A DNA stretch of 45,718 nucleotides from Ignavibacteriaceae bacterium (GTDB lineage Bacteria; Bacteroidota; Ignavibacteria; Ignavibacteriales; Ignavibacteriaceae), in the NCBI GenBank assembly GCA_031292455.1, contig JARLHC010000077.1:1-45718 (forward strand), given 5' to 3'. Every line of letters begins with the position of its first letter. Position 1 is the first letter of the stretch. Shown here one piece after another: positions 21,120 through 39,199 of this stretch. The notes under the pieces were generated by a model. That model saw only the letters and a program-made list of their open reading frames with translations. It made no database searches and was not told the DNA's origin. Both the position numbers and the translations under genes were made by a program.

Positions 21120-23354
21120 ATGAAAAAATTTATTCTTTTCTTTGTTTTGTCTCTTTCTCTTAATTTAATCATTACTGCTCAAACATGGCGGCAAGCCTAC
21201 AATATGCCTATATATTCTACTAGCAATGGCGTTTTTTCAGATCAGAATACTGCCTGGCTTGTTGGTTCGAAGCAAAGCATTTACAAGTCAACCGATGGTG
21301 GATCGACCTGGACTACTAAATTTCGTATTGATACATCATCTTATCTTGCAAAAGATGTCTGTTTTATAACTTCGACAACAGGATTTGTCGGATGTAATCA
21401 CGGGAAGATATTAAAAACAACCGATGGCGGGGATACATGGCAGTCAATATTTGTTCCCGATACATCAACTACAAACACAAGAATCCATTTTTTTGATGCT
21501 AACCTAGGGTTTACCTTAAGTACATATTATAGTCAAACTCTTAATAAGTATTGGGCTTTCATATATAAAACCAGTGATGGGGGAGCGACGTGGACCAGAT
21601 TGGATTCAATTGGTGCAAATATGTATGCTATGGATTTTTCAAGCCCTACTACAGGGATAGTTACCGGAAATAATGGTAATATTTGGTACACAACTGATGG
21701 GACTACATGGAATATTAAATCCTCTCTTACTCTGCACCCACCTACAGGTGTAGTTTATTCAAGACTTGATCAGTGGGCAGTTAAGTTTATATCAGCTTCT
21801 ACTGCGGTTTCATGCGGATGGGGCTCTTCTGCTGTCGGGTTCGAACCTACAATCTTTCTAAAAACAACAGATGGAGGGGCAAACTGGAATCAGATGGTAC
21901 AGGCTGATGCAAATAAGACTTATGTTAATTTTAACTCAATATATTTCAAAGATCAATTAAACGGTATCTCTACCGGCGGAAGCACTTATCCCGGGACTGT
22001 TATTTGCAGAACAACAGATGGCGGAATAACATGGATCCCATTACCCACTTTCTCCGGTTTTGACGGACAAGTTGTTTCAGGATTTAATGATAAAGTGGTT
22101 ATTTCAAGCGGGAGCGGAGATGTTATTATAAGTTCTGATTTTGGAAATTCATGGAGTATTGCTAACAAGTATCCTACTACATCACCTTCAGCTATCCAAA
22201 TAATTAATAATAATATTTATGCATGCTGTTATGGAAGCTCTTTCTTTAAATCAACAAATGCAGGTGATAGTTTTGATATGAGTTATATGTTAGCAGCTAA
22301 TAAATGTCTTTGGTCAAAGGATCTTTTTTTCCTAAATGAAAATTTAGGATATGCCGTAAGCCAAAGGGGGCAGGCTTTGAAAACAACTAACGGAGGAGTT
22401 TCATGGATACAGATCATACGTGATACTCTTTCGAGTACTATAGGCAATCAGGGAGTATATTTTTTAAATGAGAACCTGGGGTTTGTAGTCGGAAACTACG
22501 GTTCAAATATTGATATAATATATAAAACTACTGATGGTGGAGGAACCTGGTCTTCTCAGACAAAGAATGCATTTCAAACACTTAATTGTGTTTCTTTTGC
22601 TGATCAGATGCATGGGGCTGCAGGCGGAAATAAATCTACAATTTTATATACTACGGATCAGGGAGTATCCTGGAATGTAGCTACTGTAAATACCACTGAT
22701 CAATTAGCTATTAATAGAATTAATTTTTACGACGGACTCAATGGAATAGCTGTCGGAGAAAAGATTATCCTAAAAACAACAGATGGCGGGGCTACATGGA
22801 ACAGGATTATTATACCTATTTACGCACAAAATTCTTCTCTTTATGGGGTTTGTCATGATCTAAACGGAATTTATGTGGCAGGAGGTAAATACTGCCTGAA
22901 ATCTACAGATACCGGTAATACCTGGGTTAACATAATGGACACCGTTTTTGCCGTACAGAATGATATTACTGAAATGAAATGTATTGATATAGATAAGTCA
23001 GGGAATCTCTGGATTGGCTGCGGCGGTTCTGGAGCCGGGATAATAACAAATTCACCCCTAGATGGTATAATAAATACTCAAGCCGAATTGAGCTCTTTTA
23101 AGCTTGAACAGAATTATCCCAATCCATTCAACCCGTCAACCAGTATTAATTTCACAATTAATAAACAAGGTTACATTACACTAAAATTATTTGATATACT
23201 TGGAAGAGTTGTCAGAGAAATTTATAAAGGTGAAATTACAGCGGGCCAGCATAAAATCAATTTTAATGCAGGTAATCTTGCAAGCGGAACCTATATTTAT
23301 ACTTTACAGGTAAATGACCAGGTTACTTCCCGTAAAATGATGCTGTTAAAGTAG
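21120..23354 (+). CDS. T9SS-secreted Asp-box (BNR/Ycf48-like) repeat protein
   Basis: A 744-residue secreted protein. After the signal peptide (MKKFILFFVLSLSLNLIITAQ) come about 13 Asp-box units of the form (S/T)xDxGxxW, beginning KSTDGGSTW and KTTDGGDTW. Some have drifted, for example SSDFGNSW and STNAGDSF. The spacing of about 45-60 residues fits blades of one or two beta-propellers, as in Ycf48-like and sialidase-type folds. No catalytic sialidase residues (FRIP motif) are seen, so binding or scaffolding is likelier than hydrolysis. A T9SS sorting domain covers about 657-744 (LEQNYPNPFNPSTS ... TSRKMMLLK). GGTGG-type RBS and the signal peptide fix the ATG at 21120. A hairpin terminator follows. 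Confidence 0.88.
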   Translation: MKKFILFFVLSLSLNLIITAQTWRQAYNMPIYSTSNGVFSDQNTAWLVGSKQSIYKSTDGGSTWTTKFRIDTSSYLAKDVCFITSTTGFVGCNHGKILKTTDGGDTWQSIFVPDTSTTNTRIHFFDANLGFTLSTYYSQTLNKYWAFIYKTSDGGATWTRLDSIGANMYAMDFSSPTTGIVTGNNGNIWYTTDGTTWNIKSSLTLHPPTGVVYSRLDQWAVKFISASTAVSCGWGSSAVGFEPTIFLKTTDGGANWNQMVQADANKTYVNFNSIYFKDQLNGISTGGSTYPGTVICRTTDGGITWIPLPTFSGFDGQVVSGFNDKVVISSGSGDVIISSDFGNSWSIANKYPTTSPSAIQIINNNIYACCYGSSFFKSTNAGDSFDMSYMLAANKCLWSKDLFFLNENLGYAVSQRGQALKTTNGGVSWIQIIRDTLSSTIGNQGVYFLNENLGFVVGNYGSNIDIIYKTTDGGGTWSSQTKNAFQTLNCVSFADQMHGAAGGNKSTILYTTDQGVSWNVATVNTTDQLAINRINFYDGLNGIAVGEKIILKTTDGGATWNRIIIPIYAQNSSLYGVCHDLNGIYVAGGKYCLKSTDTGNTWVNIMDTVFAVQNDITEMKCIDIDKSGNLWIGCGGSGAGIITNSPLDGIINTQAELSSFKLEQNYPNPFNPSTSINFTINKQGYITLKLFDILGRVVREIYKGEITAGQHKINFNAGNLASGTYIYTLQVNDQVTSRKMMLLK

Positions 23355-36353: not shown

Positions 36354-38387
36354 TTAGTTAATACCAAATGCTCTTAGACCATTTACAGTTATAAATGTCA
36401 TAAAATAACCAAGTGAAGTAAAAATAATTACCTGCAATATAGGAATTCTCCACGATCCTGTCTCCTTCCTCGAAACCGCAATCGTGGATATGCACTGAAG
36501 TGAGAACATGAAAAAGACTATCAAACCGCAAATTGTGGCAGGAGTAAATAGTTTTTCCCCCGTACTTCCTATCTCTGCTTTCCGCATAGCATCCACTATC
36601 GAACTCTGCAAACTCTGTTCATTCCCTGTAACCTTAAATATCAATGCAAGTGAACTTACAAATACTTCCCGTGCCGCAAATGCAGATATTAGGGATACAC
36701 CTACCCTCCAGTCCATCCCGATAGGGGACATTACCGGCTGAATAAACCTCCCCATGTGGGATGCATAAGATCCTGATAAACGCTCGGCTCTCTGCAACTG
36801 ACTGATCTCCGTCTTATTAAGATTAGTCGTATCTACCTTTGGCGATGAATTGGGGAAATATGTTATCCCCCATATAATAATTGATAAAACAAAAATAATA
36901 GGACCCGCTTTCTTTAAGTAAACTTTCACACTGTAATATGTATTGGTTAAAACTACCCTTAGCTTGGGTACACGGTATGACGGTAATTCAAGTATAAATG
37001 ATGAATTATCATTTGCTTTAATCAAACTGCCGCTGAACTTATTTATAAATCCTGCTATTATAACAGAACTTGCTATGCTGAATATATAAATCCCAGCTAA
37101 CATTAATCCCCCTATCCAAGCTTTATCAGCCGGAAAAAGAAATGCTATCAATAAAAGATATACCGGAATCCTTGCACTGCAGCTCATCAAAGGGATAATA
37201 AATATTGTAAGATACCTTTCCTTCTTATTATTAATCGTTCTTGCCGCAAGCATTGCCGGTATCGCACATGCAAATCCGGATAACATCGGCACAAACGATT
37301 TACCGTTTAATCCTATCTTTGATAATGGCTTGTCTATAAGCATTGCTCCGCGCGCTAAGTACCCCGTATCCTCCATTACCCCAAGAATAAGGAATAATAT
37401 TGTTATCTGCGGAATAAACACAAGCACCGAACCCATACCCGTTATAATTCCGTTCGAAACAAGATCTCCAATCCAGTGTATCCCTATTAAATCATTCGCT
37501 TCATTGGCAAGTAATTCAAACAAGGAATCGATCGAATGCATAATCGGCTGGGCTAACCAGAATATGGAAGTAAAAGTTCCTGCCATTATGATAAAAAAGA
37601 ATACCAGCCCCCATACTTTATGTAGCAGCAGTTTGTCAATCTTCAAAGTTGTGTAATCCAGACTGTTGCAGTTCTGCTTCCCCCTGGGATCAGAAAATAT
37701 CTTAAGTTTTCTGTTTGCCTTCTCTATCTTATTAGCGGGAATTGTCTGATGGATTACCTTCTTCTCAATCTCCGCTATTTCAGCATATATCTTAATAAGT
37801 CTGCTCTTATCTATGTTTTCATCAAATACAACTGGCTGTTTAGCTATTTCGGTCTGCTCCCGCTCAATTAATTTCTCCACCTCTGCCATCAAATGATCTA
37901 CACCGAACCCCGATCTCCCATCTACTTTAACAACGGGACACCCAAGTTCCTCTGATAATTCTTTCTCTGATATCGACAACCCCTTTTTCTGAAGCATATC
38001 TGTCATGGTTAATGCTATTAAAACTGTGAAGTTGGCCTCGATAAGTTGTTTAACTAAAAAGAGATGACGCGATATCTGACTTGCATCCACCGTAATAATG
38101 ATTAAATCCGGTATTCCAAGCTGTGGATGATTATAAAGTGACTCAACTGCCACCTTTTCATCAGGAGAATTGGGGATAAGACTAATAATACCGGGGGAGT
38201 CTAATATATTTGCATTAAGATTGAATTTTCCCAATAGTTTGCAGATCGAATACTCAACTGTGGCTCCGGGATAATTGACCGTCTTAAAATTCTGTCCGCT
38301 TAAGTAATTAAATAGGGTGGTTTTACCGGAATTAGGAGGCCCGACTAACGTGATGAGTGAAAGCTTTTCCTCAACTTGTTCATTCAT
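36354..38387 (-). CDS. feoB: Ferrous iron transporter FeoB
   Basis: Inner-membrane Fe(II) importer with an N-terminal G domain. The ATG at 38387 gives 677 residues and a 4-base ATGA overlap with feoA; an in-frame ATG 15 bases upstream is the alternative. G1 is GPPNSGKT (16-23), G2 has Thr43 (GATVE), and G3 is DSPG (63-66). G4 reads TMTD (127-130) where most FeoB proteins have NxxD, so the guanine-specificity Asn is replaced by Thr. The membrane part has the paired gate domains: LSGFACAIPAMLAARTI and SCSARIPVYLLL in the first half, and SAFAAREVFVSSLA in the second. The length is shorter than the about 770 residues of E. coli FeoB. Confidence 0.95.
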   Translation of the reverse strand: MNEQVEEKLSLITLVGPPNSGKTTLFNYLSGQNFKTVNYPGATVEYSICKLLGKFNLNANILDSPGIISLIPNSPDEKVAVESLYNHPQLGIPDLIIITVDASQISRHLFLVKQLIEANFTVLIALTMTDMLQKKGLSISEKELSEELGCPVVKVDGRSGFGVDHLMAEVEKLIEREQTEIAKQPVVFDENIDKSRLIKIYAEIAEIEKKVIHQTIPANKIEKANRKLKIFSDPRGKQNCNSLDYTTLKIDKLLLHKVWGLVFFFIIMAGTFTSIFWLAQPIMHSIDSLFELLANEANDLIGIHWIGDLVSNGIITGMGSVLVFIPQITILFLILGVMEDTGYLARGAMLIDKPLSKIGLNGKSFVPMLSGFACAIPAMLAARTINNKKERYLTIFIIPLMSCSARIPVYLLLIAFLFPADKAWIGGLMLAGIYIFSIASSVIIAGFINKFSGSLIKANDNSSFILELPSYRVPKLRVVLTNTYYSVKVYLKKAGPIIFVLSIIIWGITYFPNSSPKVDTTNLNKTEISQLQRAERLSGSYASHMGRFIQPVMSPIGMDWRVGVSLISAFAAREVFVSSLALIFKVTGNEQSLQSSIVDAMRKAEIGSTGEKLFTPATICGLIVFFMFSLQCISTIAVSRKETGSWRIPILQVIIFTSLGYFMTFITVNGLRAFGIN

Positions 38388-38605
38388 AGAAGCTTGATAC
38401 ATCCGGCTTCATTTCTCCTGATCGCGATCAGAGTTCCTCTTAAAGAAAACGCCATGGGATCATTAAATATCGACTTATTAATCAGTTCTATCTCCTGACC
38501 TGGTGTAAAACCAATTTCAAGTATTCTCCTGGATGATGGGTGCGAGTTATCAACTTCACTTATTATGCATTTCTCCCCGAAATCCATATCTGCAGCTGTT
38601 CTCAT
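38384..38605 (-). CDS. feoA: FeoA, ferrous iron transport accessory protein
   Basis: A 73-residue cytoplasmic SH3-like protein that assists FeoB. Typical features are the GFTPGQEIELINKSIFNDPMAF stretch (about 32-53) and the closing GTLIAIRRNEAGCIKL, where the IAIRRxEA motif is the family end strand. It is first in feoA-feoB-fur and overlaps feoB by four bases. No clear ribosome-binding site or Fur box is seen upstream. A large structured repeat begins about 94 bases before its start. Confidence 0.93.
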   Translation of the reverse strand: MRTAADMDFGEKCIISEVDNSHPSSRRILEIGFTPGQEIELINKSIFNDPMAFSLRGTLIAIRRNEAGCIKLL

Positions 38606-38725
38606 AATTGGTATATATATGTGAATTATTATTAAGATTTAGTCTATATAAACATAAGGGTAGTAAGCGAGTTTGTCAAGTAGCTAATAAATCTATTTGT
38701 ACTTTTCTTTGAAGAAAAGAGTACC

Positions 38726-38766
38726 AAAAGAAGTATGGCTGCAATTAAAATACTATAAATTTACTT
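38726..38766 (+). repeat. Left arm core of 41-bp perfect inverted repeat
   Basis: This 41-bp block is the exact reverse complement of 39121-39161. It begins AAAAGAAGTATGGCTGCAAT. Similarity between the arms continues inward for roughly 70 more bases at about three quarters identity, and outward as a related hairpin (38699-38724). Confidence 0.95.
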
Positions 38767-38776
38767 CCTCTTCGCT

Positions 38777-38816
38777 GCGGTAAATGAACTCACTTCGTTC
38801 AGACAGCATTTACCGC
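38777..38816. repeat. Hairpin in left arm, 10-bp stem
   Basis: GCGGTAAATG (38777-38786) pairs perfectly with CATTTACCGC (38807-38816) across a 20-nt loop. The homologous stem in the right arm has G-C where this has T-A, a compensatory change. Confidence 0.9.
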
Positions 38817-38978
38817 TATTCACTTCATTACGCAAATTTTCTTTACGCATTTTATTTAATGCCATTAAATATGATCCAAATAAGGATATTTCTTTATGTT
38901 GAGTATAATTAATGCAAAATATTTAAGGCAGGTATACCTTTATTTATCTGACTGCTATTAATCTATTCCTTGTTTACC

Positions 38979-39043
38979 CGGCCTTAAATTAAAACACGTT
39001 TCCCTATTTGGTTCTTATTTAACGGCCTCAATTAAAATACGTT
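38979..39043. repeat. Imperfect direct repeat in the element centre
   Basis: CGGCCTTAAATTAAAACACG (from 38979) and CGGCCTCAATTAAAATACGT (from 39023) are near-identical direct copies 44 bases apart. Confidence 0.65.
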
Positions 39044-39071
39044 AAATAAATTTACTGTAACGGAGCGGCAG

Positions 39072-39109
39072 CGGGAAATGCTGTTTGAGCGAAGCGAGTT
39101 CATTTCCCG
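39072..39109. repeat. Hairpin in right arm, 9-bp stem
   Basis: CGGGAAATG (39072-39080) pairs with CATTTCCCG (39101-39109) across a 20-nt loop. It is the counterpart of 38777-38816 in opposite orientation. Confidence 0.9.
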
Positions 39110-39120
39110 TAGCGTAGTGA

Positions 39121-39161
39121 AAGTAAATTTATAGTATTTTAATTGCAGCCATACTTCTTTT
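39121..39161 (-). repeat. Right arm core of 41-bp perfect inverted repeat
   Basis: Exact reverse complement of 38726-38766. It is followed outward by a 12-bp perfect hairpin (39163-39174 with 39178-39189, loop TGC), whose counterpart in the left arm is imperfect. Confidence 0.95.
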
Positions 39162-39199
39162 CGTTCTTTTCTTATGCTAAGAAAAGAACATAAAAGATC

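Follow-up and report, generated by a model that had tools for sequence, protein, structure and literature searches.

A two-hairpin repeat dispersed across the Bacteroidota is probably an intergenic mobile DNA element

The stretch of DNA analysed here (the window; 45,718 nucleotides, contig JARLHC010000077.1 of the Ignavibacteriaceae assembly GCA_031292455.1) carries two inverted copies of a repeat that is probably a non-autonomous intergenic mobile DNA element, without coding capacity, built of two hairpins, nesting in itself and resembling ERIC and MITE sequences. The element is dispersed in its own genome and across the phylum, its arms show DNA-type pairing, copies occupy loci shared with a sister species, and at two loci newer copies are nested in older ones.

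The host is an Ignavibacteriales MAG (G000; 3.36 Mb, 171 contigs, 96.68% complete). The original prediction had described two inverted copies sharing a 41-bp core, with further related bases around it. This pair is real and is the longest repeat pair within the window. Its inverted arms of 101 nt (38717-38817 and 39070-39170) are 88% complementary, and the identical 41-bp tract is read in the sequence at 38726-38766 and 39121-39161. Elsewhere in the window, at 21411-22801, three 32-nt direct repeats lie in a large gene and look coding (LKTTDGGxTW, BNR/sortilin-like). The features of the locus are the following.

38384-38605, minus strand: feoA, the downstream neighbour
38651-38679, minus strand: feoA promoter-like site (TTGACA, 17 nt, TATGTT), inside the segment aligning with the sister feo locus
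38699-38724, plus strand: left copy, 5′ A/T-rich hairpin, GTACTTTTCTT-TG-AAGAAAAG(AG)TAC; the extra AG damages it
38725-38736, plus strand: left copy, linker, CAAAAGAAGTAT
38737-38863, plus strand: left copy, rod; CM match 38735-38864, 107.5 bits
38777-38816, plus strand: left copy, apical hairpin, GCGGTAAATG, 20-nt loop AACTCACTTCGTTCAGACAG, CATTTACCGC; 10-bp stem
38864-38888, plus strand: left copy, right tail, ATTAAATATGATCCAAATAAGGATA, genus-specific
38914-38934, plus strand: right-arm remnant, GCAAAATATTTAAGGCAGGTA, read by eye
38977-38999, minus strand: right-arm remnant, ACGTGTTTTAATTTAAGGCCGGG, read by eye
39001-39022, minus strand: right copy, right tail, TTAAATAAGAACCAAATAGGG
39024-39150, minus strand: right copy, rod, 92% of pairs Watson-Crick; CM match 39023-39152, 138.8 bits
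39073-39108, minus strand: right copy, apical hairpin, GGGAAATG, 20-nt loop, CATTTCCC
39151-39162, minus strand: right copy, linker, GAAAAGAAGTAT
39163-39189, minus strand: right copy, 5′ hairpin, GTTCTTTTCTTA-GCA-TAAGAAAAGAAC, perfect 12 bp, 3-nt loop
39200-39574, minus strand: heavy-metal-binding-domain (HMBD) protein, last gene of the cus-type cluster

In each copy, a 12-nt linker joins a 10-12 bp A/T-rich hairpin to a 127-nt rod, in which three segments are paired and certain unpaired motifs are conserved. The hairpin with a 20-nt loop reported earlier in each copy is genuine, as is the T-A versus G-C difference between the two stems, and it forms merely the tip of the rod, which had been missed. 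The outer hairpin of the right copy had also been correctly recognised as partly kept in the left arm, where its counterpart is the 5′ hairpin with the extra AG. No ORF of at least 60 aa lies inside the ~190-nt unit in either window copy. Compared with its own shuffled sequences, the right copy folded strongly (z -5.8, 0/200). Folding of the left copy was marginal (z -2.1, 5/200), its rod shows poor outer pairing (76% of pairs), and its outer stem was not predicted because its two arms derive from different subtypes. The 5′ hairpin of the left copy is of the TG-loop class, yet the linker behind it belongs to the other class. In the right copy, the linker T that precedes ATG covaries with the A at the final position of the hairpin loop.

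The window copies are arranged tail to tail, with the cus-type efflux cluster, ending in the HMBD protein, on one side and feoA-feoB-fur on the other. The right copy is placed after the HMBD stop codon, and the sister genome, G001, of the same genus, has a copy at the same place. On the other side, the window FeoB is 87% identical to that of the Ignavibacteriales MAG PLLW01, whose feo locus looks the same as in G001; in the named genomes around the FeoB relatives, these loci hold no copies. The alignment of the window with the G001 feo locus covers the promoter-like site and ends at 38682, short of the element start at 38699, so that the conserved feoA promoter segment is outside the element and the left copy stands 17 bp upstream of it. 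Because the alignment stops before the element and G001 carries a different gene further upstream, the left copy marks a synteny break.

Covariance models were used to search for further copies. A first model, built from ten copies of the own genome, found 11 copies in G000 and 30 in G001, with the element present in 11 of the 41 genomes searched, up to the level of the order. With a second model, the element was found in 27 of 296 sampled Bacteroidota genomes. Stem sequences vary across the family while the architecture and the unpaired motifs are kept. In the rod, CTAA stands opposite TTAACG, AACTC is followed by CAAACAG, and a T-G/G-A mismatch lies near the foot; CTAA, TTAACG, AACTC/CAAACAG, CAAAAGATCAAG and the T-G mismatch are kept phylum-wide. 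No element match was found in the plasmids and phages searched, and a hairpin-linker pattern had no exact match in viral contigs. Copies occur in mixed orientation. Their right ends face gene 3′ ends in 53 cases versus 23 (p = 8e-4, the copies not being independent), a bias that could arise either because 3′ flanks tolerate the element or because it has a function in transcripts.

Several local arrangements were recorded on the way. Direct tandem arrays of elements, with a period of ~250-350 bp, occur at L189 (G185), L194 (G124) and L184 (G153). At L131 (G004), L180 (G293; e.g. upstream at L180:10534-10690) and L184, a second small hairpin repeat, TCCCG...CGGGACA(A/G)GCGCCAG, is found inside the 5′ hairpin, often directly behind TTGAT or CGAT, as if landing in loops. 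In G056, the three copies read (L185-L187) each precede a near-perfect hairpin, AGCGATCTGTAC..GTACGGATCGCT, with a T-rich tract, an arrangement that is terminator-like on the top strand of the element. In G000, contigs C94 and C139 (L069, L070) are near-identical, in opposite orientation, around a solitary element hairpin; strain variation or an assembly broken at repeats is the probable cause. G000 also has a lone 5′ hairpin, TACTTTTCTTTGAAGAAAAGGTAC, located upstream of the reverse transcriptase of a group II intron (C25, ~420-1000, L009, and C25:2635-2856); this intron is possibly a hairpin-targeting (class C) intron.

The suggestion that the element is mobile is supported by comparison with the sister genome. 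Copies are present in both G000 and G001 at the cus locus, at a coxS-coxL-like operon and at C10, C168 and C12, orthology at C12 being based on a single flank. These flank searches covered a few single loci. Compared with G001, the window copy at cus shows 94% identity to a different copy and 70% to its positional counterpart; the sites therefore persist and their occupants are replaced. G000 holds an additional element at both C10 and C168, set within the left arm of the one that G001 shows there: behind the old left hairpin and left arm stands an entire element that belongs to a different class. The right flank can be read at C10, and there the newer element is followed by truncated right arms and the old tail. 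Truncated arms also flank full copies at other sites. As judged from these sequence arrangements, the element would have inserted repeatedly into older copies, and some replacements of occupants could also be gene conversion. The expected counterpart, a clean empty site, was not seen in other genomes, nor was a target-site duplication; the unit ends are lineage-specific or decayed, and the search in the genus of G033, G040 and G203 gave no usable second flank.

The left window copy is itself a mosaic because its two arms match different subtypes. Its left arm is 100% identical to the subtype of the right copy and to two other copies; its right arm is 81-85% identical to a different subtype, versus 62% for the next-best copies. 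The 41-bp core is, in view of this mosaic, best explained by an arm that copies have in common or have exchanged by conversion.

The original prediction had taken the pairing-preserving change between the two window copies as an argument that the hairpins matter. One compensatory pair does not by itself demonstrate function, since both arms of a DNA hairpin can be mended through template switching (PMC8794818). Across the family, covariation is strong. In 56 aligned copies, 89.0% of cells were paired and double changes were found in 32 of the 37 pairs, so that the further covarying pairs that had been called for exist in number. The covariation score was 0.530 for these copies, compared with 0.155 for shuffled alignments and at most 0.132 for slid structures; for the phylum set it was 0.656 against 0.158 after shuffling. 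Alignments A2 and A3 took the model structure as their guide and are thus biased toward it. The hairpins, loops and linkers, which are outside the model, show the same pairing pattern as the rod. The 5′ hairpin was found in 86 of 101 copies with 62 distinct stems; it measures 10-12 bp, is variable in sequence and is nearly always perfect (950 Watson-Crick pairs versus 18 other, non-Watson-Crick ones). Its loop covaries with the linker as CTTGAT/ATCAAG, CTTGAA/TTCAAG, CTTGAC/GTCAAG, GCGAT/ATCGC and GCGG/CCGC; in the three-base-loop class, RCA goes with TATG and RCG with CATG (final A versus final G). A few copies break this rule.

G-T pairs are nearly absent. They account for 6 of 1673 standard pairs (0.36%) in the order set and for 15 of 1521 (1.0%) in the phylum set, one conserved T-G column being left out, as compared to 74 of 609 (12.2%) in the SRP RNA of 29 genomes of the same order. 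Therefore, pairing is kept at the DNA level. Arms that change together almost without G-T point to a mobile element whose folding or maintenance takes place in DNA, not in RNA. The covariation may originate from selection, from template switching, or from both.

Template switching alone could in principle produce such a pattern: the element would be an old immobile relic in which replication across hairpins uses one arm as the template for the other, and the pairing would need no function. The process is known to create and repair perfect stems and to invert loops (PMC8794818), and a loop inversion with an intact stem is indeed found in G056, with ATCAAG in L185 versus CTTGAT in L186 and L187. 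G-T is no commoner than other mismatches, and element positions are common to different species, both of which speak for such a relic. We nevertheless regard this explanation as unlikely, for arm copying leaves the phylum-wide unpaired motifs and the T-G mismatch unexplained, and newer copies are nested in older ones.

A structured RNA or 3′-UTR element kept for host expression, such as an ERIC-like mRNA stability element or a bidirectional terminator, is distinctly improbable. ERIC hairpins act in mRNA (PMC2229807), the orientation bias toward gene 3′ ends would agree with such a role, and G-U would be excluded if both strands had to fold. Against this, the G-T frequency of 0.4-1.0% is far from the 12.2% of SRP RNA, copies lie in mixed orientation, the family matches nothing in Rfam by gathering threshold or E-value, and no terminator-like site was found.

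As to how the element moves, the REP/BIME or MITE likeness proposed at the outset holds in that the repeat is dispersed and structured, and fails for REP sequences with RAYT. A REP/BIME or REPIN family moved by a Y1 tyrosine transposase (RAYT) would account for dispersed hairpins, asymmetric unpaired bases and inverted or tandem arrangements, and Y1_Tnp occurs in 37 of the 41 genomes. Most element-free relatives are, however, among these 37, whereas G000, at 96.68% completeness, gave no match to PF01797 (Y1_Tnp), the gene that the original prediction had proposed to look for. Near ten Y1 genes of relatives, the best element match (21 bits, E 0.02) was not significant, inspection of the aligned hairpins by eye revealed no conserved GTAG/CGTC tag at the foot, and the unit is 4-5 times the length of a REP. 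Y1/RAYT was thus rejected as the driver, being absent from G000 and without a link to the element in relatives, and we hold a REP/RAYT origin to be very doubtful. A group II maturase was also rejected as the driver; it is missing in most element genomes and does not track the element. That the copies are attC-like integron recombination sites is barely conceivable: one-orientation clusters occur in G293, G262 and G153, yet the G293 copies lie antisense between large genes, unlike cassettes, no R′′/R′ boxes were seen by eye at the fold ends, the window copies stand between the cus and feo operons, and an integron array is contradicted by the gene layout.

In the reading that we prefer, that of a non-autonomous mobile DNA element, a putative enzyme acting in trans on the folded DNA hairpin would spread the element and would insert it preferentially into older copies of the same family. 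From one insertion to the next, the arms would be kept complementary by template switching, perhaps together with selection for a foldable substrate. In the window, the right copy would be an old resident, and the left copy a mosaic at a rearrangement point, with a left arm shared with, or converted from, the subtype of the right copy. Our searches revealed no transposase or recombinase linked to the element. A driving enzyme, should there be one, would represent a new recombinase acting on hairpins.

A further, tentative proposal is that the family represents a previously undescribed, Bacteroidota-wide class of DNA-structure elements, in which the hairpin, the loop-linker pairing and the asymmetric rod might together be the substrate of a putative hairpin-recognising recombination machinery inserting into older copies. 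No earlier description of the family was found, by sequence strings or topic, in the papers searched, which is not proof of novelty. One architecture recurs in scattered lineages across the phylum while the stem sequences are exchanged with hardly any G-T intermediates, providing a natural test of whether template switching or selection acting on the folded DNA gives rise to such covariation. The loci that are shared but have different occupants show how an element without genes is able to survive by inserting into its own copies.

Finally, the element was compared with known systems. The intergenic hairpin repeats known so far (ERIC, REP, Correia) are mostly restricted to narrower groups. Set beside ERIC/IRU by description, not by alignment, the element is likewise ~127 bp long, intergenic, non-autonomous and dispersed, and forms a long imperfect palindrome. 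It differs in its second, upstream hairpin with loop-linker covariation, its phylum-wide spread and its nested copies; ERIC, for its part, has a TA target duplication. As a dispersed, multi-copy, foldable repeat of ~100-150 bp with no ORF of its own, the element would be placed among ERIC/MITE-type sequences (PMC2229807, PMC2267715) by its architecture only, since neither a target duplication nor a parent transposon or IS sharing the element ends was seen. With REP/BIME/REPIN and RAYT systems it shares dispersed hairpins and inverted arrangements. Unlike them, it is a 127-nt rod plus a hairpin, has no GTAG/CGTC tag and resides in a genome, G000, in which no RAYT was found. The hairpins produced by template switching resemble it in their perfect stems, paired changes and loop inversion; PMC8794818 describes a mutation mechanism for RNA genes, whereas the element is a dispersed family. 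The survey of PMC2267715 names no Bacteroidota family under the terms searched. Correia/NEMIS, RUP, YPAL and the stem-loop families, among them the Efa-1 and Pae-1 double hairpins, are likewise short, gene-less, foldable and intergenic, and some of these MITE-like and stem-loop families also have two adjacent hairpins.
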